From contig NZ_JABFDG010000001.1 of the NCBI RefSeq assembly GCF_013403955.1, positions 1,178,001 through 1,242,000 on the forward strand: a stretch of 64,000 nucleotides of DNA. The letters are read 5' to 3'. Shown here piece by piece: positions 39,164 through 49,429 of the stretch. Positions within the stretch are counted from its first letter, which is position 1. Every line of letters starts with the position of its first letter. The notes beneath the pieces were generated by a model. It was given only the letters and a program-made list of their open reading frames with translations. It was not told the DNA's origin and did no database searches. The stretch comes from Winogradskyella vidalii. GTDB taxonomy: Bacteria > Bacteroidota > Bacteroidia > Flavobacteriales > Flavobacteriaceae. Both the position numbers and the translations under genes were made by a program.

Positions 39164-40570
39164 ATGCACAACGATACCATTGTCGCTTTAGCAACACCAT
39201 CAGGAAGTGGTGCCATTGCGGTTATACGATTATCTGGAAAAGAGGCGCTAACGATAGCATCAAAATGCTTTAAATCTGTTTCTAATAAAGATTTATTAAA
39301 GCAGGCGACGCATACCATTCATTTAGGACATATTGTAGAAGAGGACCGAACCATAGATGAGGTTTTAGTATCAGTTTTTAAAGACCCTAATTCTTATACA
39401 GGTGAAAATGTTGTAGAAATATCTTGCCATGGTTCGTCTTATATTCAACAAGAAATCATCCAATTATTTTTACGACACGGCTGTAGAATGGCAACAGCGG
39501 GAGAGTTTACCTTACGTGCATTTTTAAATGGCAAACTCGATTTAAGTCAGGCAGAAGCCGTAGCCGATTTAATTTCTAGTGATAACGAAGCCTCGCATCA
39601 AATAGCAATGCAGCAAATGCGTGGTGGTTTTTCTTCTGAAATAGCTAAGCTTCGTGAAGAACTTTTAAACTTTGCATCGTTAATTGAATTAGAACTCGAC
39701 TTTGCAGAAGAAGATGTTGAGTTTGCTGATAGAACACAATTTAAGCAACTTATTGAACGTATCAATTTTGTGTTGAAACGTCTAATTGATTCTTTTGCGG
39801 TAGGAAATGTGATTAAAAACGGGATACCTGTCGCTATTGTCGGAGAACCGAATGTTGGAAAATCGACCTTACTTAATGCATTATTAAATGAAGACCGCGC
39901 CATAGTTTCCGAAATTGCAGGAACAACTAGAGACACCATTGAAGATGAAATTTCTATTGGCGGTGTTGGCTTCCGATTTATAGATACGGCAGGTATTCGT
40001 GAAACCGAGGATGTTGTTGAAAGTATAGGTATTAAGAAGACTTTTGAAAAGATAGAGCAAGCACAGGTGGTGATGTTTTTAGTTGGCAGTCCACAATTGG
40101 TTATTGGTAGTGAAGCTATAGAAGCCTTTAAAATTGAAATTGAAAAAATTAAAAATAAGTTTCCACAAAAACAGTTGTTGGTCATTTTGAATAAGATTGA
40201 CCAAATAACAGATTCGGAACTTGGAAGCCTAATCTCAAACCTCAAATCTCACACCACAAACCTATTACCGATTTCAGCGAAAACAGGCTTTGGTGTTGAG
40301 CAATTAACCAATAGACTACTTAATTTAATAAATACTGGAGCCCTTAGGAATAACGAAACTATTGTAACAAATTCTCGTCATTATGATGCGTTATTAAAGG
40401 CATTTGAGGAAATTCAGAAAGTGCAATATGGATTAGAGTCTGATCTTTCAGGTGATTTATTAGCCATTGATATTCGTCAGGCCTTATATCACTTTGGTGA
40501 AATTACAGGTGAGATTACCAATGATGATTTGTTAGGGAATATATTTGCTAATTTTTGTATCGGGAAGTAA
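39164..40570 (+). CDS. mnmE: tRNA uridine-34 5-carboxymethylaminomethyl synthesis GTPase MnmE
   Basis: 468-residue GTPase that with MnmG modifies U34 of several tRNAs. The N-terminal folate-binding domain (DTIVALATPSGSGAIAVIRLSG), a helical domain and an inserted G domain are complete: G1 GEPNVGKSTL, G2 GTTRDTIED, G3 DTAGIRE, G4 NKID. The chain ends with the obligatory CIGK motif. ATG at 39164 is preferred over a TTG two codons earlier. The last 75 bp, coding GEITGEITNDDLLGNIFANF then CIGK, are repeated in decayed form at 44071-44144, see findings. Confidence 0.95.
   Translation: MHNDTIVALATPSGSGAIAVIRLSGKEALTIASKCFKSVSNKDLLKQATHTIHLGHIVEEDRTIDEVLVSVFKDPNSYTGENVVEISCHGSSYIQQEIIQLFLRHGCRMATAGEFTLRAFLNGKLDLSQAEAVADLISSDNEASHQIAMQQMRGGFSSEIAKLREELLNFASLIELELDFAEEDVEFADRTQFKQLIERINFVLKRLIDSFAVGNVIKNGIPVAIVGEPNVGKSTLLNALLNEDRAIVSEIAGTTRDTIEDEISIGGVGFRFIDTAGIRETEDVVESIGIKKTFEKIEQAQVVMFLVGSPQLVIGSEAIEAFKIEIEKIKNKFPQKQLLVILNKIDQITDSELGSLISNLKSHTTNLLPISAKTGFGVEQLTNRLLNLINTGALRNNETIVTNSRHYDALLKAFEEIQKVQYGLESDLSGDLLAIDIRQALYHFGEITGEITNDDLLGNIFANFCIGK
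40496..40570 (+). repeat. Direct repeat copy 1: intact mnmE 3' end (possible att site)
   Basis: 75 bp from GGTGAAATTACAGG to the mnmE stop. The last 18 bp are TTTTGTATCGGGAAGTAA. The partner copy at 44071-44144 has 74 bp, ends TTTTGTATCGGTAAGTAA and keeps most bases. The terminal 18 bp of mnmE (trmE/thdF) are the known integration site of SGI1-type islands in enterobacteria. Confidence 0.75.
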
Positions 40571-40623
40571 CAAAAGAAAACATTCGCGAAAAATAATCAA
40601 ATAGCTTCTATATAGATAGGGAC

Positions 40624-40700
40624 TAGTGTTGGTTTAAACTCAAGTCATTTTCAAGTAGCAAAAATGAGTTTTGAAATAGAAAATGTTATAACCAACACTA
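40624..40700. repeat. Nested inverted repeat downstream of mnmE
   Basis: TAGTGTTGGTT (40624-40634) is inverted as AACCAACACTA (40690-40700). Inside it AAACTCA and TGAGTTT also pair. The whole could fold into one long hairpin, a terminator-like or mobile palindromic element. It lacks a T-tract. Confidence 0.45.
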
Positions 40701-40830
40701 ATATTTCATACAAAATATTAATTCATATTGCCAAAAGTTATCCCGACTATAGCGTTGACTCTGTTTAATCAACTCTAAAAAACGGTATAATAACTTATAA
40801 ATTGAACTCGCGAACAGTTAGGATTAAGAT

Positions 40831-42924
40831 TTAATCTTTAGCCTTTATAAATTTCTTATTGATATATAGCTCTCCATTCTTAAGTTTCTTTAAGTAAGCA
40901 TTCATATCTGCATATATCTCAGGAGCTAAAATATATAACCCTGCAATGTTGGGAAATGACATTGCTAAAATCATCATGTCGGCAAAGCTTAGTACAGCAC
41001 CCAAACTTACAGAAGCACCTAACACCACAAACCCTAAATACATAAACTTATATAGTAGCTCACCTTTTTTACTACGTCCAAACAAGTAGGTCCATGAGCG
41101 CATTCCGTAGTATGACCAAGACACCATGGTAGAGAAGGCGAATAAAAATACTGCAATTGCTAGAACTGTAGGGAACCAAGAAATCACACTTCCAAAAGCT
41201 GAAGATGTAAGTTCTACACCTCCCATTTGTAAATTACCTTCGTGCTTACCGGTAAAGATTAAAACTAAAGCCGTCATGGTACACACCACCATGGTGTCAA
41301 TAAAAGGTTCTACTATGGAGGTGAATCCATCGGCAATAGGATGATTTGTTTTCGCTGGACTATGCGCTATGGCAGCAGACCCAACACCTGCCTCACTAGA
41401 AAACGCAGCACGTTGTAAGCCTATAATTAATACGCCAATAAATCCACCTTTAAGCGCGTCGGCAGAAAAAGCACCATCAAAAATGGCAGAAAAAGCACCA
41501 CCAATCCCTTCAATGTTTGTCCCGATAACCACCAAACACCCTAAAATATATAAGATAGCCATAAAGGGAACAACTTTTGCGGTCACCTTAGCAATACTTT
41601 TTATACCACCAATAATTACAACTCCCACAAGTATTGCAAAGCCAACTCCAAACCAGAACCCTTGGCCTTGAAGAAATGGTATTTGTTCTGAAACTATTTT
41701 AAAAGCTTGGTTAGATTGCAACATATTTCCACCACCAAAAGAGGCACCTATACCTAGGACAGCAAATAATACAGCAAGAAATCTTCCCAATTGTTTTTTA
41801 TTTCGTTTTTCAAGGCCGTGTCGGAGATAGTTCATTGGGCCACCAAAAACGCGTCCATCGGCATCGATAACGCGATATTTAACCCCCATGGCGCATTCGG
41901 CAAACTTTAAAGACATTCCAAAAAAGCCAGCTGTAAACATCCAAAATGTTGCACCAGCTCCACCTAAAGAAATAGCTACAGCAACGCCTGCAATATTTCC
42001 TAAGCCAACTGTGGCAGATACTGCAGTAGCCATTGCTTGAAAATGGGTAATACTTCCTGGAGCGTTAGGGTCATTAAACTTTCCTCTTGCCAAATCAATA
42101 GAATGGCGGAAACCACGAATATTTATAAACTTCAAGCGAATTGTAAAAAAAATACTTCCAAATATCAGCCAAATAACAATAAATGGGATGGTGTTGGTTA
42201 CCACATCACCATTAGGATGTAATAAAGGCTGCTCGTCCTTGAAATTAACGCTTCCAAGTTTAAGTTCTTGAGCAGTAGTTGCTCTTGAAGATGGTTTTAT
42301 AAGCGTGCCTTCTGTAACTTTGTGATGTAGCTTTCCGTAGTATTTTGTCTTTAATATAGATTCTACGCCATCAATTTCAATACGTGCAATTTGTTGATTT
42401 GGTTCTACCTGTTCTCCATCTGCAACTAACCATTTTTTAAGGAGGTAGCGCTCGTGTTCAATAGTTGTGTTTGGAGGTAAAATGTTTTCGTGAGAAATAT
42501 AAACCACAGGGTCATAGATTCCAACTGAAGCGAAGGGATCCCAGAATAAAATAGCACCTAGAAAATCAACTGCCGGTTGAACATTACTATTAAAAATTTC
42601 AATTATAGATTTTGCAGGAATTTTGAAAGATTTGGAAACGGAGTTGCCATCAGCGTCAGTTACCGTTACCGAATGTTTCATTCCTTCAATTAATCCTGTA
42701 GAGTATTCAGAAATTAAAGGCGTATTTTGATTGCTCCATTTATAAAGATATGGAGGTGAACCTCCTTCAGCTTTTACCTTAGCCGTTGCATTATTGATTT
42801 CGGAAGAAGGATTGTCTAATTTGAGACTGATTGTTAATTCTGTAGAGGTATTTGTATTATTTTGAGCTTTAGAGCCCGTTATTAGAAAGAATGAAAGAAA
42901 AATAAAAAATAGCGGTCTTACCAT
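40831..42924 (-). CDS. Alanine:cation symporter (AgcS) with N-terminal SprB-like and lipoyl-like domains
   Basis: 697-residue inner-membrane Na+/amino-acid symporter. The AgcS core spans about residue 244 to the end: HFQAMATAVSATVGLGNIAGVAVAI, FWMFTAGFFGMSLKFAE, GGGNMLQSNQ and AAFSSEAGVGSAAIAH are family marks. The N-terminus is unusual: signal peptide (1-21), an SprB-type beta repeat (28-103, with GGSPPYLYKWSN and VTVTDADGNSV), then a first membrane hairpin. A biotinyl/lipoyl-like barrel (162-222) is inserted before the next helix; it has DG in place of the modifiable DK. ATG 42924 gives the signal peptide; the frame extends to 42996. Confidence 0.85.
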   Translation of the reverse strand: MVRPLFFIFLSFFLITGSKAQNNTNTSTELTISLKLDNPSSEINNATAKVKAEGGSPPYLYKWSNQNTPLISEYSTGLIEGMKHSVTVTDADGNSVSKSFKIPAKSIIEIFNSNVQPAVDFLGAILFWDPFASVGIYDPVVYISHENILPPNTTIEHERYLLKKWLVADGEQVEPNQQIARIEIDGVESILKTKYYGKLHHKVTEGTLIKPSSRATTAQELKLGSVNFKDEQPLLHPNGDVVTNTIPFIVIWLIFGSIFFTIRLKFINIRGFRHSIDLARGKFNDPNAPGSITHFQAMATAVSATVGLGNIAGVAVAISLGGAGATFWMFTAGFFGMSLKFAECAMGVKYRVIDADGRVFGGPMNYLRHGLEKRNKKQLGRFLAVLFAVLGIGASFGGGNMLQSNQAFKIVSEQIPFLQGQGFWFGVGFAILVGVVIIGGIKSIAKVTAKVVPFMAILYILGCLVVIGTNIEGIGGAFSAIFDGAFSADALKGGFIGVLIIGLQRAAFSSEAGVGSAAIAHSPAKTNHPIADGFTSIVEPFIDTMVVCTMTALVLIFTGKHEGNLQMGGVELTSSAFGSVISWFPTVLAIAVFLFAFSTMVSWSYYGMRSWTYLFGRSKKGELLYKFMYLGFVVLGASVSLGAVLSFADMMILAMSFPNIAGLYILAPEIYADMNAYLKKLKNGELYINKKFIKAKD

Positions 42925-43445
42925 CAATTTTATAGCTTTGATTAACGTTAGAATGTAGGGTTTTTGCAATTTAACGATAAAGAGAAGTCTACCCAAGTTA
43001 TTATAAATTTTTTCTTCAAAAATTCATGGGTTATCATAGCTTTATAATGGCTTTAATTTGTTGGTTATAAGGTGTTTTGGTGGTTTTTGCATGAATTTGT
43101 CAATATTATGCTAAATGATTCTCCAAAGCGAGTAATTAACCTATAAATCTTATTTAAATTTATAACAGTTGGTTCTCGTAATATTTTTAGCTATTAACAC
43201 CTGGTTAAAAAACTGGTTGTCAATCTCTTTATGTTATTTGTTGGAGGCGTAGTTTTTCAACTTTCCTGTTGAAAATGAATTGGCTGAGATGTTGTATAAA
43301 ATAAATTCGGTTTGTTATTAAGGTATAAACCTATTGACAAACCGAATTTTAAAGTACTTCTATTTCGTTCTTAAAAGTGTAACTACTAAATTGAATTAAT
43401 CCTATATCTAGATTGTAAAAAAGGATGTAAACTGTTAGTCTTAGT
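42925..43445. other. Intergenic region between symporter and DsrE genes
   Basis: AT-rich with no coding frame of note. It holds the DsrE terminator hairpin at 43303-43349. Nothing else is recognised. Confidence 0.4.
43303..43349 (-). terminator. Long hairpin, probable terminator of the DsrE gene
   Basis: 13-bp stem AAATTCGGTTTGT / ACAAACCGAATTT. On the minus strand it is followed by ATTTTATAC, 97 bp past the DsrE stop codon. A short AGGT...ACCT pairs inside the loop. Confidence 0.6.
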
Positions 43446-43886
43446 CTATAAGGTGATTGTTTTGAAACCTAATTCTTGCAGCCCAAAAATATAAGCAAAA
43501 CCATCTGGAGTCGTTTTAATTGAGTGGTGATAATCTGATTTATTAACTTCAAAGTGATTCATAGCAAATTCACAAACGACTATTCTAATTCCCATTTTTT
43601 CACTAAGTTCAATAAGGGGAATTAAACTTTCATCAGTAGCTAAATCTTTGGTTACAGCACTGATGAGTACAATTTCGAATTCAATTTCAGGGTTTTTAGC
43701 TTTTAGGTTTTTTCCACTATTTACAGCAGCTTGAAAATAACGTGCATTAGGAGCAAGTATCGCATATTTGCCTTCTTGTTTTATAGATTTTTCTACATCA
43801 GAAACACTCATAGACTGCGCATTAATTGAGGTGTATGCTGTTGATGCTACTAGTAAGAAAATGAGGCTATAAAATTGTTTTTTCAT
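43446..43886 (-). CDS. Exported DsrE family protein
   Basis: 146-residue periplasmic protein. Signal peptide 1-23 ends SINAQ. The mature part is a DsrE/TusD-like Rossmann-type fold: KYAILAPNARYFQAAVNSGKNL, FEIVLISAVTKDLA, and MGIRIVVCEFAMNHF, whose single Cys is at the sulfur-carrying position of DsrE-like proteins. Exported DsrE proteins in Bacteroidota are linked to sulfur or redox metabolism but not characterised. Its promoter has a -7 box TATCTTTG (43933-43940) and a perfect palindromic operator at -41.5, indicating Crp/Fnr-type activation. Confidence 0.8.
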   Translation of the reverse strand: MKKQFYSLIFLLVASTAYTSINAQSMSVSDVEKSIKQEGKYAILAPNARYFQAAVNSGKNLKAKNPEIEFEIVLISAVTKDLATDESLIPLIELSEKMGIRIVVCEFAMNHFEVNKSDYHHSIKTTPDGFAYIFGLQELGFKTITL

Positions 43887-43932
43887 GATTTGTTTTTGAA
43901 TTAATTATATACTGTAAAACAACAGTACTTAA

Positions 43933-43940
43933 CAAAGATA
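43933..43940 (-). promoter_or_regulatory. Promoter -7 element of the DsrE gene
   Basis: Minus-strand TATCTTTG fits TAnnTTTG, 46 bp before the ATG. The transcription start should lie near 43927. There is no -33 TTTG; the operator palindrome occupies that place. Confidence 0.6.
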
Positions 43941-43959
43941 AACGTATAAGTAAAACGGA

Positions 43960-43977
43960 TTGTAACTTATGTTACAA
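43960..43977 (-). promoter_or_regulatory. Perfect palindrome, candidate Crp/Fnr-family operator
   Basis: TTGTAACTTATGTTACAA is a perfect 7-4-7 inverted repeat, the layout of FNR (TTGATnnnnATCAA) and related sites. Its centre is about 41 bp before the predicted transcription start of the DsrE gene, the classical class II activation position. Confidence 0.6.
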
Positions 43978-44554
43978 CGAGACAATAACTTCTCTGTTAT
44001 ATAAACAGTCACGCTTATTTAAATGTTTTAGTATTAAAATCTTTTTAAAGAGAGTTTTATAATACGAGGTGGTGAAACCATAGGTGAGATTACCAAGGAT
44101 GATTTGTAAAGCATCTATTTGCTGATTTTTGTATCGGTAAGTAAGCAGAGATTACTTCATATTATAATTTATTTATCAATTCAGTCATAAGTATAGGTTT
44201 TATAACTGACGATTTAACCTTGCTATAAGCTGTATTTAACTATGGCATAACCACGCTATAACCTATTGGAATATATTTAGTAATCTTTTGGTATTGAGCT
44301 ACTTAGTTTAAATAAGCGATTGTGGCAAAACATGGAGGTAATATTCCACTTATAGGCTGTTTTATTATATGGTTAAGATTTATTGTTTAAGTTTCTCTGT
44401 AGGAGATATTTTGAAACGTATTATTTTTTTTACTCTCATTATAAATTTAATTGTAATAAAATTTTTACAATTAGTTATTGAGATAAAATTTTACGCAATA
44501 GGGATCTTTAAAAATCTGATATTTAAATACATTGCTTTCATAAAACACTTATTT
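43978..44554. other. Intergenic region carrying the mnmE remnant
   Basis: Mostly AT-rich sequence without a gene. The mnmE 3'-end remnant is at 44071-44144. From 44369 a frame runs into the DUF421 gene, but its first 62 codons are low-complexity Ile/Phe/Lys typical of AT-rich noncoding DNA, so they are not included in the gene. Confidence 0.4.
44071..44144 (+). pseudogene. Decayed duplicate of the mnmE 3' end (direct repeat copy 2)
   Basis: 74 bp align with the last 75 bp of mnmE with one deletion and about 14 substitutions. The frame reads GETIGEITKDDL and then a stop, so it is dead. The match ends exactly at the mnmE stop codon, TTTTGTATCGGTAAGTAA at 44127-44144, where similarity to the sequence after mnmE also stops. 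This is what a displaced gene end left by an integrated element would look like. Confidence 0.8.
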
Positions 44555-44941
44555 ATGGAAAATTTGATACACCCTTTGCTTGAAATTTTGCCCAAAGTAT
44601 TACTTAGCGTTACCGCTTTATTTGTAGTCACCATTGTTGTTTCTAGAATTTCAGGTTTAAGAACGTTAGCAAAATTTTCTACACCCAATTTTATATCGAT
44701 ATTTAATCTGTGGGCGTCAAAACAACCCATGTTACTTATGGATAATGGAAAGTTTATAGTTGACCATTTGAGAAAAACTAAAGTAGAGGCTAAAGGTGTT
44801 TATGAGAAATTAAGAGAAGCAAAGATGAAAGGTGAAGGTGAAGTTGTATCTGTGGTATTAGAAAGCACAGGAGATATTTTAGTTATACATAAACCCAAAA
44901 GTGTCGGTTTGTCTAAAGATAGCGTAGCTATACGAAAGTAA
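44555..44941 (+). CDS. DUF421 (YetF-like) protein lacking the middle membrane segments
   Basis: 128-residue protein. It keeps the first membrane helix (LLSVTALFVVTIVVSRISGLRTLAKF) and the whole cytosolic DUF421 domain (QPMLLMDNGKFIVDHLRKTK, GEVVSVVLESTGDILVI). About 45 residues that carry TM2 and TM3 in normal family members are missing between STPNF and ISIF. The full-length relative at 45553 shows what is lost. The deletion is in frame. It is followed 7 bp later by a SemiSWEET gene, suggesting one transcript. Confidence 0.7.
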   Translation: MENLIHPLLEILPKVLLSVTALFVVTIVVSRISGLRTLAKFSTPNFISIFNLWASKQPMLLMDNGKFIVDHLRKTKVEAKGVYEKLREAKMKGEGEVVSVVLESTGDILVIHKPKSVGLSKDSVAIRK

Positions 44942-44948
44942 ACGTACT

Positions 44949-45206
44949 ATGACACACATTGAAATTATAGGCATACTTGCAGGACTTTTTACTACCGTTG
45001 CTGTAATTCCTCAAATTGTAAAAGCTATAAAAACAAAAGGTGTAAATGACATAAGCCCTGTGTTTTTTACAATACTAATACTAGGTGTGGGGTTATGGAC
45101 TGTATATGGCATTTTAAAAACGGACTGGCCAATAATTATAACTAACGGTATCTCATTTATACTCAATACCATTATGTTAGTTATTTATAAACAAAGAAAA
45201 AAATAG
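44949..45206 (+). CDS. SemiSWEET family transporter
   Basis: 85-residue membrane protein with three helices forming one PQ-loop/MtN3 half. The family mark AGLFTTVAVIPQIVKAIKTKGVNDIS contains the PQ motif, and SPVFFTILILGVGLWTVYG and NGISFILNTIMLVIY follow. SemiSWEETs dimerise to move sugars such as sucrose or glucose down a gradient. It begins 7 bp after the truncated DUF421 gene. Substrate not predictable. Confidence 0.9.
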   Translation: MTHIEIIGILAGLFTTVAVIPQIVKAIKTKGVNDISPVFFTILILGVGLWTVYGILKTDWPIIITNGISFILNTIMLVIYKQRKK

Positions 45207-45552
45207 AAATAGCCTTATAATTTTAATTAAAAAAATGATATGAGTACCACCACAATTGGGTACTTCTTTATACTTAAAAGAGGATAACAGTTGAGTATTG
45301 CTGATTTGATGAATGTAATCTCAGGCAATTTATTTTTTATGGAAAGTGACTATTATACAAAACTGTTATCTGAGGACACATTTGATGCTGAAGAAACTAT
45401 TTTTTTTTAGTTAATCGTAATTATCAGTGGTTTTGAAGTTGTCATAAAATAGATTGAATTGCCGTGTTTACTACACGTACAGTTACATATAGAAATGAAG
45501 GAATTTTTTAATATAGGTTATGAGATTTTATCGGAATTATAGTTCGAAAAGT
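45207..45552. other. Intergenic region with a possible short peptide
   Basis: No firm gene. A 33-codon frame at 45309-45410 (MNVISGNLFFMESDYYTKLL, then SEDTFDAEETIFF) has a protein-like acidic composition and may be a short gene or a gene remnant. The rest is AT-rich. The DUF421 frame starts upstream at 45520, but the family start is 45553. Confidence 0.3.
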
Positions 45553-46104
45553 ATGGCGTTAATCGGTCAGATTACAGATGGAATTGAAAAGTGGTTTGAA
45601 TCTTCATTACAAGCTATAGTAGCGATTGCGGTTTCTACATTGGTCATTTATATCGCAGTAATTGTATATACACGTATTTTTGGAAAACGCAGTTTATCTA
45701 AAATGTCTAGTTTCGATTTTGCTATGACTGTAGCTGTGGGGTCGCTTATTGCAACTACAGCATTGTCTCCTTCTGTTTCATTAATAGATGGTTTGGTAGG
45801 GCTACTAATGATTTACTTCTGCCAATTTAGCGTTGCTTATTTCAGGGGATGGAAACCCTTTAGAGACGCGATTGACAATAGTCCATTATTACTAATGGAC
45901 GGAAGTGAAATTCTTAAAAATAATTTAAGAAAAGCCCAGCTTACGGAAGGTGATTTAAGGTCTAAATTAAGAGAGGCTAATGTTTTAGATTTAACGGATG
46001 TACGAGCTGTTGTGTTTGAAACCACGGGAAATATTGTTGTATTACACTCCAATAACCCCGAGAAGCAATTAAAAGATTGGTTATTAAAAGATGTTAAACA
46101 TTAG
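45553..46104 (+). CDS. DUF421 (YetF-like) membrane protein
   Basis: 183-residue protein with three membrane helices (about residues 20-40, 57-75 and 80-100) and a cytosolic C-terminal domain. Family marks: YTRIFGKRSLSKMSSFDFAMTVAVGSLIA, NSPLLLMDGSEILKNNLRKA, DVRAVVFETTGNIVVLH. ATG at 45553 (MALIGQITDG) fits the family better than 45520. DUF421 proteins have been tied to spore and envelope functions in Bacillus but no activity is established. Its stop codon abuts the next membrane protein gene (5 bp). Confidence 0.85.
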   Translation: MALIGQITDGIEKWFESSLQAIVAIAVSTLVIYIAVIVYTRIFGKRSLSKMSSFDFAMTVAVGSLIATTALSPSVSLIDGLVGLLMIYFCQFSVAYFRGWKPFRDAIDNSPLLLMDGSEILKNNLRKAQLTEGDLRSKLREANVLDLTDVRAVVFETTGNIVVLHSNNPEKQLKDWLLKDVKH

Positions 46105-46109
46105 TGCTT

Positions 46110-46544
46110 ATGATTAATTTAGTAATTCAGATTATTGTGGCTGGTATTGTGGCAACTTTAGTAATGACAGCTTTTAGTTATTTGCTGTCTGCAGTCACTA
46201 ATTATAAATTAAAAGAACCCCAGTTTATCAATTTGTTGCTTTCTAAAAGTAGATTATTTTCTTTAGATATTGAGAAGACGCATTTGTTAGGGTGGATGTT
46301 ACACTTTATGGTTGGGATTAGTTTTGTAGTTTGTTATCATCTACTTAGAACTCTTAATGTTTTGAATGATAGCCTTGTACATGCATTGTTATTTGGTCTT
46401 ACAGCCGGATTAATTGGTGTTGCTTTTTGGTGGATTACATTGCGTTTACATTCTAATCCGCCAAAGCTGAATAGATCATTTTATTTGTTTCAGCTGATTC
46501 CTGCTCATATTATTTTTGGTGTAATGGTCGGTTTTTTAATGTGA
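46110..46544 (+). CDS. Four-helix membrane protein, hypothetical
   Basis: 144-residue inner-membrane protein with four hydrophobic helices (about 4-26, 62-82, 92-114, 125-143), including GWMLHFMVGISFVVCYHLL. No named family recognised with certainty. The ATG lies 5 bp after the DUF421 stop; a GTG at 46104 overlaps that stop and could also serve. Likely co-transcribed with the DUF421 gene. Confidence 0.7.
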   Translation: MINLVIQIIVAGIVATLVMTAFSYLLSAVTNYKLKEPQFINLLLSKSRLFSLDIEKTHLLGWMLHFMVGISFVVCYHLLRTLNVLNDSLVHALLFGLTAGLIGVAFWWITLRLHSNPPKLNRSFYLFQLIPAHIIFGVMVGFLM

Positions 46545-46599
46545 GAAATTTTCGCTTTGCGTATGTATTAATTTTTTTATCGGCTGCTTTTAGTTAGGG

Positions 46600-47448
46600 T
46601 TATGCCCCAACAACTTCGCCTCCGTTGATGTGTATAAATTGCCCGGTAATATAGCTGGCGTCTTTTGATGCTAAGAATACATAAGCGGGCGCCACTTCGC
46701 TAGGTTGACCAGCACGCCCTAGAGGTTGGTCTTTTCCAAAATTGCTAATATCATTAAATGTAGCAGGTATTAAAGGTGTCCAAATAGGACCTGGTGCAAC
46801 GCCATTTACACGAATATTTTTCTCTGCTAATTGTTTTGAAAGTGATCTAGTGAAACTTACGATAGCTCCTTTTGTACTTGCATAATCCACTAGATGGTTA
46901 CTACCTCTGTATGCTGTTACTGAGCTTGTATTTATAATTGTATCACCATCTTTGAGGTGTGCTAAGGTAATTTTTGTTAGGTAAAAGTAAGCGTAGATAT
47001 TAGTTTTAAAAGTTTTATCAAAATCTTTCATCGAAATATCTGAAATATCATCTTTTGGAAAATGAATAGCCGCATTATTTATTAATATATTTAACTGACC
47101 ATATTCGTTAATACAAGTTTTAAGAACTCTCTCGCATTGTTCGGTTTTTTGTAAATCAGCTTTGATTAATAGGCATTTTTGTCCTTCTTTTTCAACTTGT
47201 AGCCTTGTTTCTTTTGCATCACTATCTGCTGAAAGGTATACTATGGCAACATGTGCTCCCTCTCTTGCAAAGTGAACGGCAATACTTCTGCCAATTCCGC
47301 TGTCTCCACCTGTTATTAAAGCAATTTTATTTTTTAATTTATCACTTCCTTTATAGTCTTTTCTTATGACTTCTGGAAGCGGATTCATTTTGCTCTGCTT
47401 GCCAGGTAAATTTTGACTTTGCTCAGGGAATTCTTCTGGTTTACTCAT
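46600..47448 (-). CDS. SDR family oxidoreductase (general stress protein 39-like)
   Basis: 282-residue short-chain dehydrogenase with a 40-residue N-terminal extension (EFPEQSQNLPGKQSKMNPLP) typical of the YdaD/GSP39 and YhxC group. NAD(P)-binding ALITGGDSGIGRS, INNAA, the catalytic INTSSVTAYRG with YASTKGA (Tyr-x3-Lys) and GPIWTPLIP are complete. In Bacillus such enzymes belong to general stress and ethanol/osmotic responses. It ends in ASYITGQFIHINGGEVVGA. Single gene; substrate unknown. Confidence 0.9.
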   Translation of the reverse strand: MSKPEEFPEQSQNLPGKQSKMNPLPEVIRKDYKGSDKLKNKIALITGGDSGIGRSIAVHFAREGAHVAIVYLSADSDAKETRLQVEKEGQKCLLIKADLQKTEQCERVLKTCINEYGQLNILINNAAIHFPKDDISDISMKDFDKTFKTNIYAYFYLTKITLAHLKDGDTIINTSSVTAYRGSNHLVDYASTKGAIVSFTRSLSKQLAEKNIRVNGVAPGPIWTPLIPATFNDISNFGKDQPLGRAGQPSEVAPAYVFLASKDASYITGQFIHINGGEVVGA

Positions 47449-47776: not shown

Positions 47777-49429
47777 ATGCAGAAAAAACGACCTGTATAT
47801 ATAACATTTATTGTATTGTTGTTGACGATAAATGGTTTCTCACAAACTAATACACTTAAAGCTTTAGATGATCAGAAAGCTCTAGATAATCAGATTGATA
47901 AGGGTATTGAGTTGATGTTTCAAAAAGCGCATTCTCAGTCTATTGAAATGTTATTAAATACCGAAGCAATAGCTAAAAAAAAGGAATGGTATGAACAAGT
48001 TTTTAGATCCACACTAAATATTGGGTCTAATTATTATTTGCTTTCAGACTATGGAGAAGCGGTTTTGTATTATTTACAAGCTTATGAGATTGCAATAGAA
48101 CATTTAGGTTCTCGTCAAGAGATGACAGTACTTAATAATATTGGGATACTTTATTTTCAAGAAAAAGAACTTGAACAAGCCAAAACACACTTTTTAAAAG
48201 CTTATCAAAAAGCCAAAACTATAGATGAAGAGGTTAAGATGGGTTACTATGCTGTTAACCTTGCTTTAGTATCTAATAAAATGATGGCGCCAGATTCAGC
48301 ACAACATTATATTGAAGAAGCTTTACCCTTATTAAAAGAGCATCCTAAGGTTTTAATGCAAGGAAAGATGGCTCAGTCTGAAATGTTTTTACTCAAAAAA
48401 CAATACGACAAATCAGAAGCCATAGCCCTTAATTTATTAGAGAAGCTTCAAGATATTTCACAAATTGAAGACCGCGTATTTATTCTATTAGTTTTGGCAC
48501 AAATTAATGAAGATCAAAACTATTTAGATAAGGCACTTAATTATGGTATTGAAGCTCGAAATACGCAACTAGGAATTGAGAACCGTACAGAAGTGTATGA
48601 TTACTTGTCTAACTTATATGGTAAAATGGGGCTTTTAGACAAGGCATTAATCTATAAAGATTCCGTTATTATTGCTTCAGATTCACTGACCACTATTAGA
48701 AATAGAAAATTGTTTGAAACAGAAAAAGTAAAGTTTCAAATTCAAAATTATAAGCATGAGCTTTCTGAGAGTAAAGCCGTTTTAAAGGAAGAACGTCGAT
48801 TTTTTTATAGCATTATTAGTATTACAGTCTTAAGTATGGGGTTTGTATTGTGGATTTTTAGAAGTAATTCTATAAAGCATAAACAGCGAAAAACAATTGT
48901 AGAATTAGAATTAGCTAAGGAGAAAAGTGATTACTTGCTTATTGAAAAACAATTAGAGGAGCAAGAAACTTTAGCACTATTAGAACAAGAGCGTCTTAAA
49001 AATGAATTGGAGGTAAGGAATAGAAAGCTCACAGCAAAAGCGTTGTATTTGTCTAGCAAGAATGATTTAATAGAAGAGGTGATAAAGTCCCTATCTCAGC
49101 AAACCGAAATTGCTGAAAACCCTGAATTAAGAAAACAATTAAGAGCATTAAAAGTACATCTTAAATCAGATAACCAATGGGATAGTTTTTTTACCCATTT
49201 TGAAGAGGTTAATCAAGGGTTTTTAGACCGACTTAGAGCGCAACATGAAAAACTTACTCCTAGTGATATTCGTTTTATCACTTATTTGTACATGAATTTA
49301 TCAAATAAAGAAATTGCCTCACTATTAAACATTACACCACAGTCCTGCAGGAAGCGTAAGGAGCGTATTTCTAGTAAGTTAAATATCCCTGAGGGTACTT
49401 CACTTCATTCTTATTTAGCCATGATTTAA
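47777..49429 (+). CDS. TPR-containing LuxR-type transcriptional regulator, membrane-anchored
   Basis: 550-residue regulator of the Bacteroidota TPR-LuxR type. Signal peptide 1-22 (ending FSQ), then about seven TPR-like repeats (30-300) outside the inner membrane. A membrane helix at about 344-363 (FFYSIISITVLSMGFVLWIF) and a long coiled coil (375-425) follow. The cytosolic C-terminus is a LuxR-like helix-turn-helix: LTPSDIRFITYLYMNLSNKE, then IASLLNITPQSCRKRKERIS. It lies just upstream of a T9SS protein that it may control. Confidence 0.87.
   Translation: MQKKRPVYITFIVLLLTINGFSQTNTLKALDDQKALDNQIDKGIELMFQKAHSQSIEMLLNTEAIAKKKEWYEQVFRSTLNIGSNYYLLSDYGEAVLYYLQAYEIAIEHLGSRQEMTVLNNIGILYFQEKELEQAKTHFLKAYQKAKTIDEEVKMGYYAVNLALVSNKMMAPDSAQHYIEEALPLLKEHPKVLMQGKMAQSEMFLLKKQYDKSEAIALNLLEKLQDISQIEDRVFILLVLAQINEDQNYLDKALNYGIEARNTQLGIENRTEVYDYLSNLYGKMGLLDKALIYKDSVIIASDSLTTIRNRKLFETEKVKFQIQNYKHELSESKAVLKEERRFFYSIISITVLSMGFVLWIFRSNSIKHKQRKTIVELELAKEKSDYLLIEKQLEEQETLALLEQERLKNELEVRNRKLTAKALYLSSKNDLIEEVIKSLSQQTEIAENPELRKQLRALKVHLKSDNQWDSFFTHFEEVNQGFLDRLRAQHEKLTPSDIRFITYLYMNLSNKEIASLLNITPQSCRKRKERISSKLNIPEGTSLHSYLAMI

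Follow-up and report, generated by a model that had tools for sequence, protein, structure and literature searches.

The 3′ end of mnmE as a site for integrase islands in Winogradskyella and a putative displaced mnmE end in W. vidalii

A repeated mnmE terminus in the window

Why does the 3′ end of mnmE occur twice in the genome of Winogradskyella vidalii, with a 3.5-kb segment between the copies? A preliminary description of the stretch of DNA analyzed here (64,000 nucleotides, positions 1178001–1242000 of contig C11 in genome G000, hereafter the window) had proposed that an element brought a new mnmE 3′ end and pushed the old one away. The locus comprises the following features:

39164..40570, + strand: intact mnmE (tRNA-modification GTPase), with ATG at 39164 and a stop codon ending at 40570 (list of open reading frames)
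40553..40570, + strand: attachment core TTTTGTATCGGGAAGTAA, the mnmE terminus, unoccupied here (sequence past the island right end of the relative G018 aligns from position 40549)
40571..40830, no strand assigned: spacer between mnmE and the symporter gene, also found after the island right end in G018
40831..42996, − strand: sodium:alanine symporter gene (agcS), part of the putatively inserted block, with a 91% identical copy past the island end in G018
43446..43886, − strand: gene for a 146-aa protein earlier labelled DsrE
44070..44144, + strand: decayed repeat of the mnmE 3′ end, 75 bp long (86% identity, E = 1.9e-17), probably the original end in displaced position
44127..44144, + strand: core inside this remnant, TTTTGTATCGGTAAGTAA (pattern match)
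44145..44357, + strand: DNA to the right of the remnant, made up of a leader that contains CATAACCACGCTATAACC and the 12 initial codons of a broken gene similar to a 249-aa gene after mnmE in G011, G016, and G008 (sequence comparison)
44369..47448, no single strand assigned: two DUF421 genes, a SemiSWEET-type gene, a DUF2938-like gene, and a short-chain dehydrogenase gene (minus strand), not at the corresponding place in G018
47777..49429, + strand: TPR regulator gene (Pfam), a right-side marker of the site in 12 genomes

The terminus of mnmE (40495–40570 in the BLAST match) recurs in direct orientation, and a search of the whole 4.33-Mb genome with the mnmE 3′ end returned two places in total at E ≤ 0.001, namely mnmE itself and 44070–44144. 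A chance repeat was rejected on the basis of this search. Read in the mnmE frame, the second copy contains a stop (TTG TAA) and has one base fewer; the similarity ends at the stop codon of both copies, and the sequences 3′ of them do not match each other. The direct recurrence, the decay, and the sharp end of similarity had all been described before and were confirmed within the window. A tRNA or tmRNA as the real target was rejected, as neither was found in the 64-kb window. MnmE relatives were found in all 60 relatives searched. A mosaic test of the window's mnmE against 19 relatives gave 83–96% identity over the last 75 bp in all 19, values too alike to discriminate among them.

The symporter label given earlier was upheld by Pfam and NCBIfam (Na_Ala_symp and agcS), but the label DsrE had to be abandoned, since the 146-aa protein matched no Pfam or NCBIfam family at E ≤ 0.001. 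A symporter with at least 70% identity occurred in three of 68 genomes, the window's own counted; a gene order of mnmE, symporter, DsrE-like gene, and remnant that is conserved across most relatives was therefore rejected. In agreement with the preliminary description, no integrase is left in the 3.5-kb segment: tblastn with four types of mnmE-adjacent integrases from relatives gave no match longer than 100 aa at E ≤ 1e-5 in the 64-kb window. The segment also contains no recognizable island right end.

Integrase islands after mnmE in the genus

The DNA 3′ of mnmE was examined in 63 genomes of the genus, including that of the window; G015 (whose contig ends inside mnmE), G023, G078, G084, and G085 were left out, and some of the contigs were short (G018 stops 82 bp past mnmE, and a few others stop within 2–4 kb). 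A full-length relative of one of four tyrosine integrases (intA to intD) was located directly 3′ of mnmE in 26 of the 63, starting 0.15–0.87 kb downstream. G066, which is not included in this count, carried a 45-aa integrase fragment at the same place. Outside the genus, an integrase followed mnmE in G048 (another family), and none was found in five further genomes; with G066 and G048 counted, the total was 28 of 69 genomes. IntA contained the Pfam domains Arm-DNA-bind_5, Phage_int_SAM_5, and Phage_integrase, and an alignment of six integrases showed invariant R, K, HxxR, H, and Y, which we take to be the residues expected of tyrosine recombinases.

The core pattern TTYTGYATHGGNAARTA was matched in 65 of 68 genus genomes, and the same pattern read backwards, which served as a control, gave nine matches in eight of the 68. 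At least one further core on the same strand was present downstream of mnmE, on the same contig and within about 120 kb, in ten genomes (G000, G007, G010, G022, G025, G060, G064, G075, G080, and G088), with three further cores each in G060 and G010 and two in G007; the second copy in G032 was on another contig. Among the genus-scan matches, G034 alone had an opposite-strand pair on one contig, with the two cores 1.6 Mb apart. In G077 (L156), a second core-like sequence, TGTATCGGAAAGTAACTT, lies about 30 bp past the mnmE stop, within the first 45 bp, and without a known integrase. A family-wide scan for cores at any place identified neighboring same-strand cores within 50 kb in at least nine of 149 genomes, among the matches listed.

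The intA islands start with TTGTATCGGGAAGTA-ACTTAC after mnmE and end with ...AAATA-TTGTATCGGGAAGTA, followed by the old flank. Their length from core to core was 20.3 kb in G064, 31.3 kb in G073, 31.9 kb in G005, 33.0 kb in G063, and about 33 kb in G065. The far side was examined on the same contig in 13 integrase-bearing genomes (G002, G005, G010, G022, G025, G060, G063, G064, G065, G073, G074, G080, and G090), and a distal mnmE core of 15–18 bp was found in 12 of these, the exception being G074. A distal core was also present in G007, G075, and G088, but none of the four integrases was found there within 6 kb of mnmE. In the arrays of G010 and G060, the second and third inter-core segments contained no relative of intA to intD, and thus may be passengers of the first integrase.

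Comparison of empty and filled sites delimits these islands. In G018, the left end of an island follows mnmE, and contig C78 begins with a right end; the adjoining sequence aligns to window positions 40549–43045 at 87.8%. As the two ends lie on two contigs, we infer that they belong to one island; on the basis of the alignment, the window is the empty version of the site that is filled in G018. A second pair consists of G019, which is empty (TAGACGCTG...), and G065, which is filled; the sequence past the right core of G065 is 81.6% identical to G019 over 1027 bp, starting in the core. In addition, the right flanks of the filled sites in G063 and G002 align to the empty site of G014 (TAGAATCC...), with 76.7% identity over 292 bp and 80.9% over 283 bp, respectively. 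The stop codon of mnmE is TAG in the empty G014 and G019 and TAA in the filled G063 and G065, where the old TAG flank now lies behind the displaced core, and MnmE keeps its CIGK end. Since the last codons and the stop fall within the core, filled sites can carry a new stop codon, and the difference between TAA at mnmE and TAG at the displaced core indicates that the final bases of the gene come from the island side. The preliminary description had proposed to look for relatives that lack the symporter block at this site and for relatives in which an island with an integrase ends at the same core, and both kinds exist. These genome comparisons provide good support for an island site at the 3′ end of mnmE in the genus, and the integrases are predicted to cut the core and move islands today.

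The TPR regulator gene marks the right side of the site. Its orthologs in 11 relatives were 75–84% identical, and the gene starts 0.2 kb after mnmE in G014 and 7.2 kb after it in the window. In G002, G005, G022, G063, G064, G073, G074, and G090, it is located 29–48 kb past mnmE, and all of these genomes carry a post-mnmE integrase that is 74–100% identical to intA. In G018 and G032, the TPR gene and mnmE are on different contigs.

The cargo was examined in the 20.3-kb island of G090, in which 18 ORFs were called and 13 were scanned with Pfam. The matches were three HTH_17 proteins, the integrase, DUF6617, BT4734-like_N, DUF3987 with PriCT_2, a Piwi protein, a CusB/HlyD-type fusion protein, FUR, an E1-E2 ATPase, DUF6943, and DUF6266. 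The Piwi protein (L133:2017-4128), encoded in an intA island, was identified by PADLOC as a long prokaryotic Argonaute (E = 4e-287). Among these 13 of 18 ORFs, Pfam recognized no relaxase, conjugation, or mobilization genes and no SGI1 backbone genes (TraG, TraH, TraN, and mobilization genes). The G073 island contains a 703-aa ORF whose start is similar to that of the G090 Argonaute, and the large efflux pump of the G090 island was represented in the scan by its G073 counterpart, which matched ACR_tran and OEP. Phage-sheath clusters (Phage_sheath_1 and 1C) were located in the third array segment of G010, where mnmE cores lie on either side (contig C5, about 120600–173000; L113–L115 and L111), and directly after mnmE in G020 (L067). 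These clusters look like contractile injection systems; two other large proteins had no Pfam match.

Origin of the 3.5-kb segment

The remnant is followed by a leader with CATAACCACGCTATAACC and by the gene start GTGGCAAAACATGGAGGTAATATTCC, which are similar to the leader and the beginning of a 249-aa gene that lies directly 3′ of intact mnmE in G011, G016, and G008, and BLAST similarity to relatives is carried by these two elements; the first 60–80 bp or so between the remnant stop and the leader showed no significant similarity of their own. On account of this resemblance, 44070–44357 is likely a relic of the original mnmE end and its neighbor. The flank without the mnmE part matched six other stretches at E-values from 6e-11 to 5e-6 (G065, G018, G008 twice, G016, G011, and G019 among them), and the leader is found about 0.7–0.8 kb further on in G019 and past the island in G065. 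A leader with GCTATAACC repeats recurs in the genus (window 44145–44357, L169, L170, L040, L050, and L037), partly before the 249-aa gene. The 249-aa protein belongs to no Pfam family, and an assignment of this gene in G011 to DUF6266 was dropped, that family being represented only by a 213-aa gene near the island right end.

Taken together, it is probable that the mnmE end of the window is an empty landing site for the integrase islands of relatives, and that incoming DNA supplied a new end and moved the old one 3.5 kb away, to 44070–44144. Two parts of the earlier proposal find support, namely the use of the mnmE end as an island site and the pushing away of the old end, with which the distal flank, like that after intact mnmE in three relatives, agrees. 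That the segment is a plain footprint of a core-cutting integrase is not supported as stated: it holds neither an integrase nor a recognizable right end, and it is bounded by a 75-bp repeat and not by the 15–18 bp repeats at the ends of the integrase islands. This length, four to five times that of any integrase core seen, speaks against the displacement reading. As the repeat exceeds every core in length and begins, on its left, inside the mnmE coding sequence, a core-cutting integrase alone does not explain it, and the crossover was probably located upstream in mnmE. The incoming DNA would have borne the symporter block together with an mnmE 3′ end and recombined with mnmE upstream of the core, the left junction most likely by homology and the right by an illegitimate join, and the old 75-bp end would have been left stranded and then decayed. 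Long decayed mnmE ends beside the TPR flank in G032 and G064 are comparable and count in favor of this reading.

An unlikely alternative regards the segment as what remains of an integrase island that crossed over 57 bp or more upstream of the core; such an island would have brought a 75-bp mnmE end of its own, much as phage 21 and e14 do at the end of icd, which they replace, and its integrase would have been lost since. The mnmE site attracts integrases (26 of 63 genomes), and long mnmE ends are also found at the far side in G032 and G064; against this, none of the four known integrase types is present in the window, and the far-side repeats of the examined integrase islands measure 15–18 bp. 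The decayed mnmE 3′ parts in G032 (L033:2454-2617) and G064 are longer than that of the window and lie beside the TPR flank, the one in G064 giving a protein match to residues 358–468 at 41% identity, which suggests that a larger second mnmE piece may once have been beside the TPR flank in these two genomes. The remnant may share descent with the long fragments: one substitution (GCTGAT) is common to them, but its identity to them is 77% as compared with 86% to its own mnmE.

It is somewhat more doubtful that the remnant, the leader, and the broken gene start form a later passenger block from the mnmE region of another strain, which would mark no displacement of the window's own end. The leader and the 249-aa gene are dispersed, occurring also away from mnmE on contig C60 of G018, so the remnant flank could stem from other DNA. 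Furthermore, G018 has the mnmE end, an island end, the symporter, and the TPR gene but not this block: the symporter adjoins the site there, and the DsrE-like gene, the remnant, and everything up to the dehydrogenase are missing, which implies that one lineage lost or gained that block. For the displacement reading to hold, the block would have had to be lost in G018 or gained later in the window. On the other hand, the mnmE most similar to the remnant is that of the window's own genome (86%), followed by that of G018 (84%), with those of G011, G016, and G008 less similar, although 75 bp is a short stretch for such a comparison. A simple tandem duplication of the mnmE end with a later insertion between the copies, consistent with the direct orientation and the single pair, is very improbable, as the sequences after the two copies are unlike and the flank of the second occurs after mnmE in other species.

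Integrase relatives beyond the genus and known systems

Named genomes were scanned with a profile built from the mnmE-adjacent integrases; at least 556 relatives were confirmed, and the best 80 were kept. In 74 of these 80, a figure that describes the mnmE-adjacent clade because the profile was built from it, the mnmE C-terminus was located 119–635 bp upstream of the integrase match in the same orientation, and all hosts with a stated group among the best 80 were Bacteroidota. As for the other six, L187 retained the last bases of mnmE alone, with the core, and L207 and L237 had 2 and 7 bp of upstream DNA. In L230, a core lies inside the frame of an MFS transporter about 640 bp before the integrase, possibly as a secondary attachment site. 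L235 and L236, near-identical integrases of Mesonia aquimarina and Formosa maritima, had no mnmE or core found upstream, possibly owing to a change of target. In the tree, these two formed one long branch inside the mnmE clade, L230 was placed among mnmE-adjacent integrases, and near-identical integrases came from Sphingobacteriaceae, Chitinophagaceae, and Cyclobacteriaceae (L190, L191, and L194).

The first 6 kb after mnmE in G005 were 98.1% identical to the corresponding DNA of Olleya, whereas the mnmE genes were 73.6% identical. The corresponding values (post-mnmE DNA vs. mnmE) were 92.1 and 74.0% for Seonamhaeicola, 92.1 and 71.4% for Aquimarina, 91.2 and 75.0% for Mesoflavibacter, 85.6 and 72.7% for Lacinutrix, and 83.4 and 74.5% for Hanstruepera, and partial matches of 75–85% were found in Mesonia and Cellulophaga. 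DNA after mnmE is common to several genera, and genome comparison supports the use of the mnmE end as an island site elsewhere in Bacteroidota. The identity of the integrase remained below 60% in each of 284 plasmid records and in 651 of the 652 phage records.

It is reasonably likely that the mnmE 3′ end is the dedicated target of a clade of tyrosine integrases found throughout Bacteroidota, that the CIGK-stop codons are a cross-phylum docking site reached independently by unrelated integrases (SGI1 in Gammaproteobacteria), and that the islands exchange the host's stop codon, accumulate in tandem, and have Argonaute, metal-efflux, and contractile-sheath genes as cargo. This would provide Bacteroidota, in which the limits of islands are often difficult to draw, with a defined island hot spot. 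A core of 15–18 bp together with natural empty and filled pairs makes boundaries, cargo, and spread between families readable from genomes, and the use of one conserved gene end in two phyla makes the convergence of integrases on essential C-terminal codons testable. The SGI1 integrase presumably differs in type and domains from those of the mnmE islands described here.

In Gammaproteobacteria, the SGI1 family and other islands occupy the 3′ end of trmE/thdF/mnmE, with the last 18 bp as attachment site, and the same gene end, direct repeats, tandem arrays, and a hot spot for several island families are common to those islands and the present ones (PMC2297512; PMC9035990). Integration in the last 18 bp with direct repeats was seen in the islands of relatives (15–18 bp), but not in the segment of the window. 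The host phylum is different, and no SGI1 backbone gene was recognized among the scanned island proteins. The preliminary description had regarded this use of mnmE in Bacteroidota as undescribed; indeed, no report was found among the literature matches listed, which cover subscription journals and preprints only slightly and so do not establish absence from print. The tables of PMC5704250 give trmE as a site for SGI1 and MGIVchHai6 only, and assign Bacteroidota elements to two preferred sites, AT-rich regions or short motifs. The dusA-specific integrases likewise form a dedicated family aimed at one tRNA-modification gene, but they target dusA at the 5′ end, and the available text names mnmE only as the SGI1 target (PMC4482086). 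The CTnDOT-type integrases and mobilizable islands of Bacteroidota, as far as described in PMC5704250 and PMC6316836, resemble the mnmE islands in the domains Arm-DNA-bind_5, Phage_int_SAM_5, and Phage_integrase, here present in one integrase, with catalytic residues invariant in six, and in HTH and BT4734/DUF3987 accessory genes. In contrast to CTnDOT-type elements, the mnmE islands are site-specific at one protein gene.
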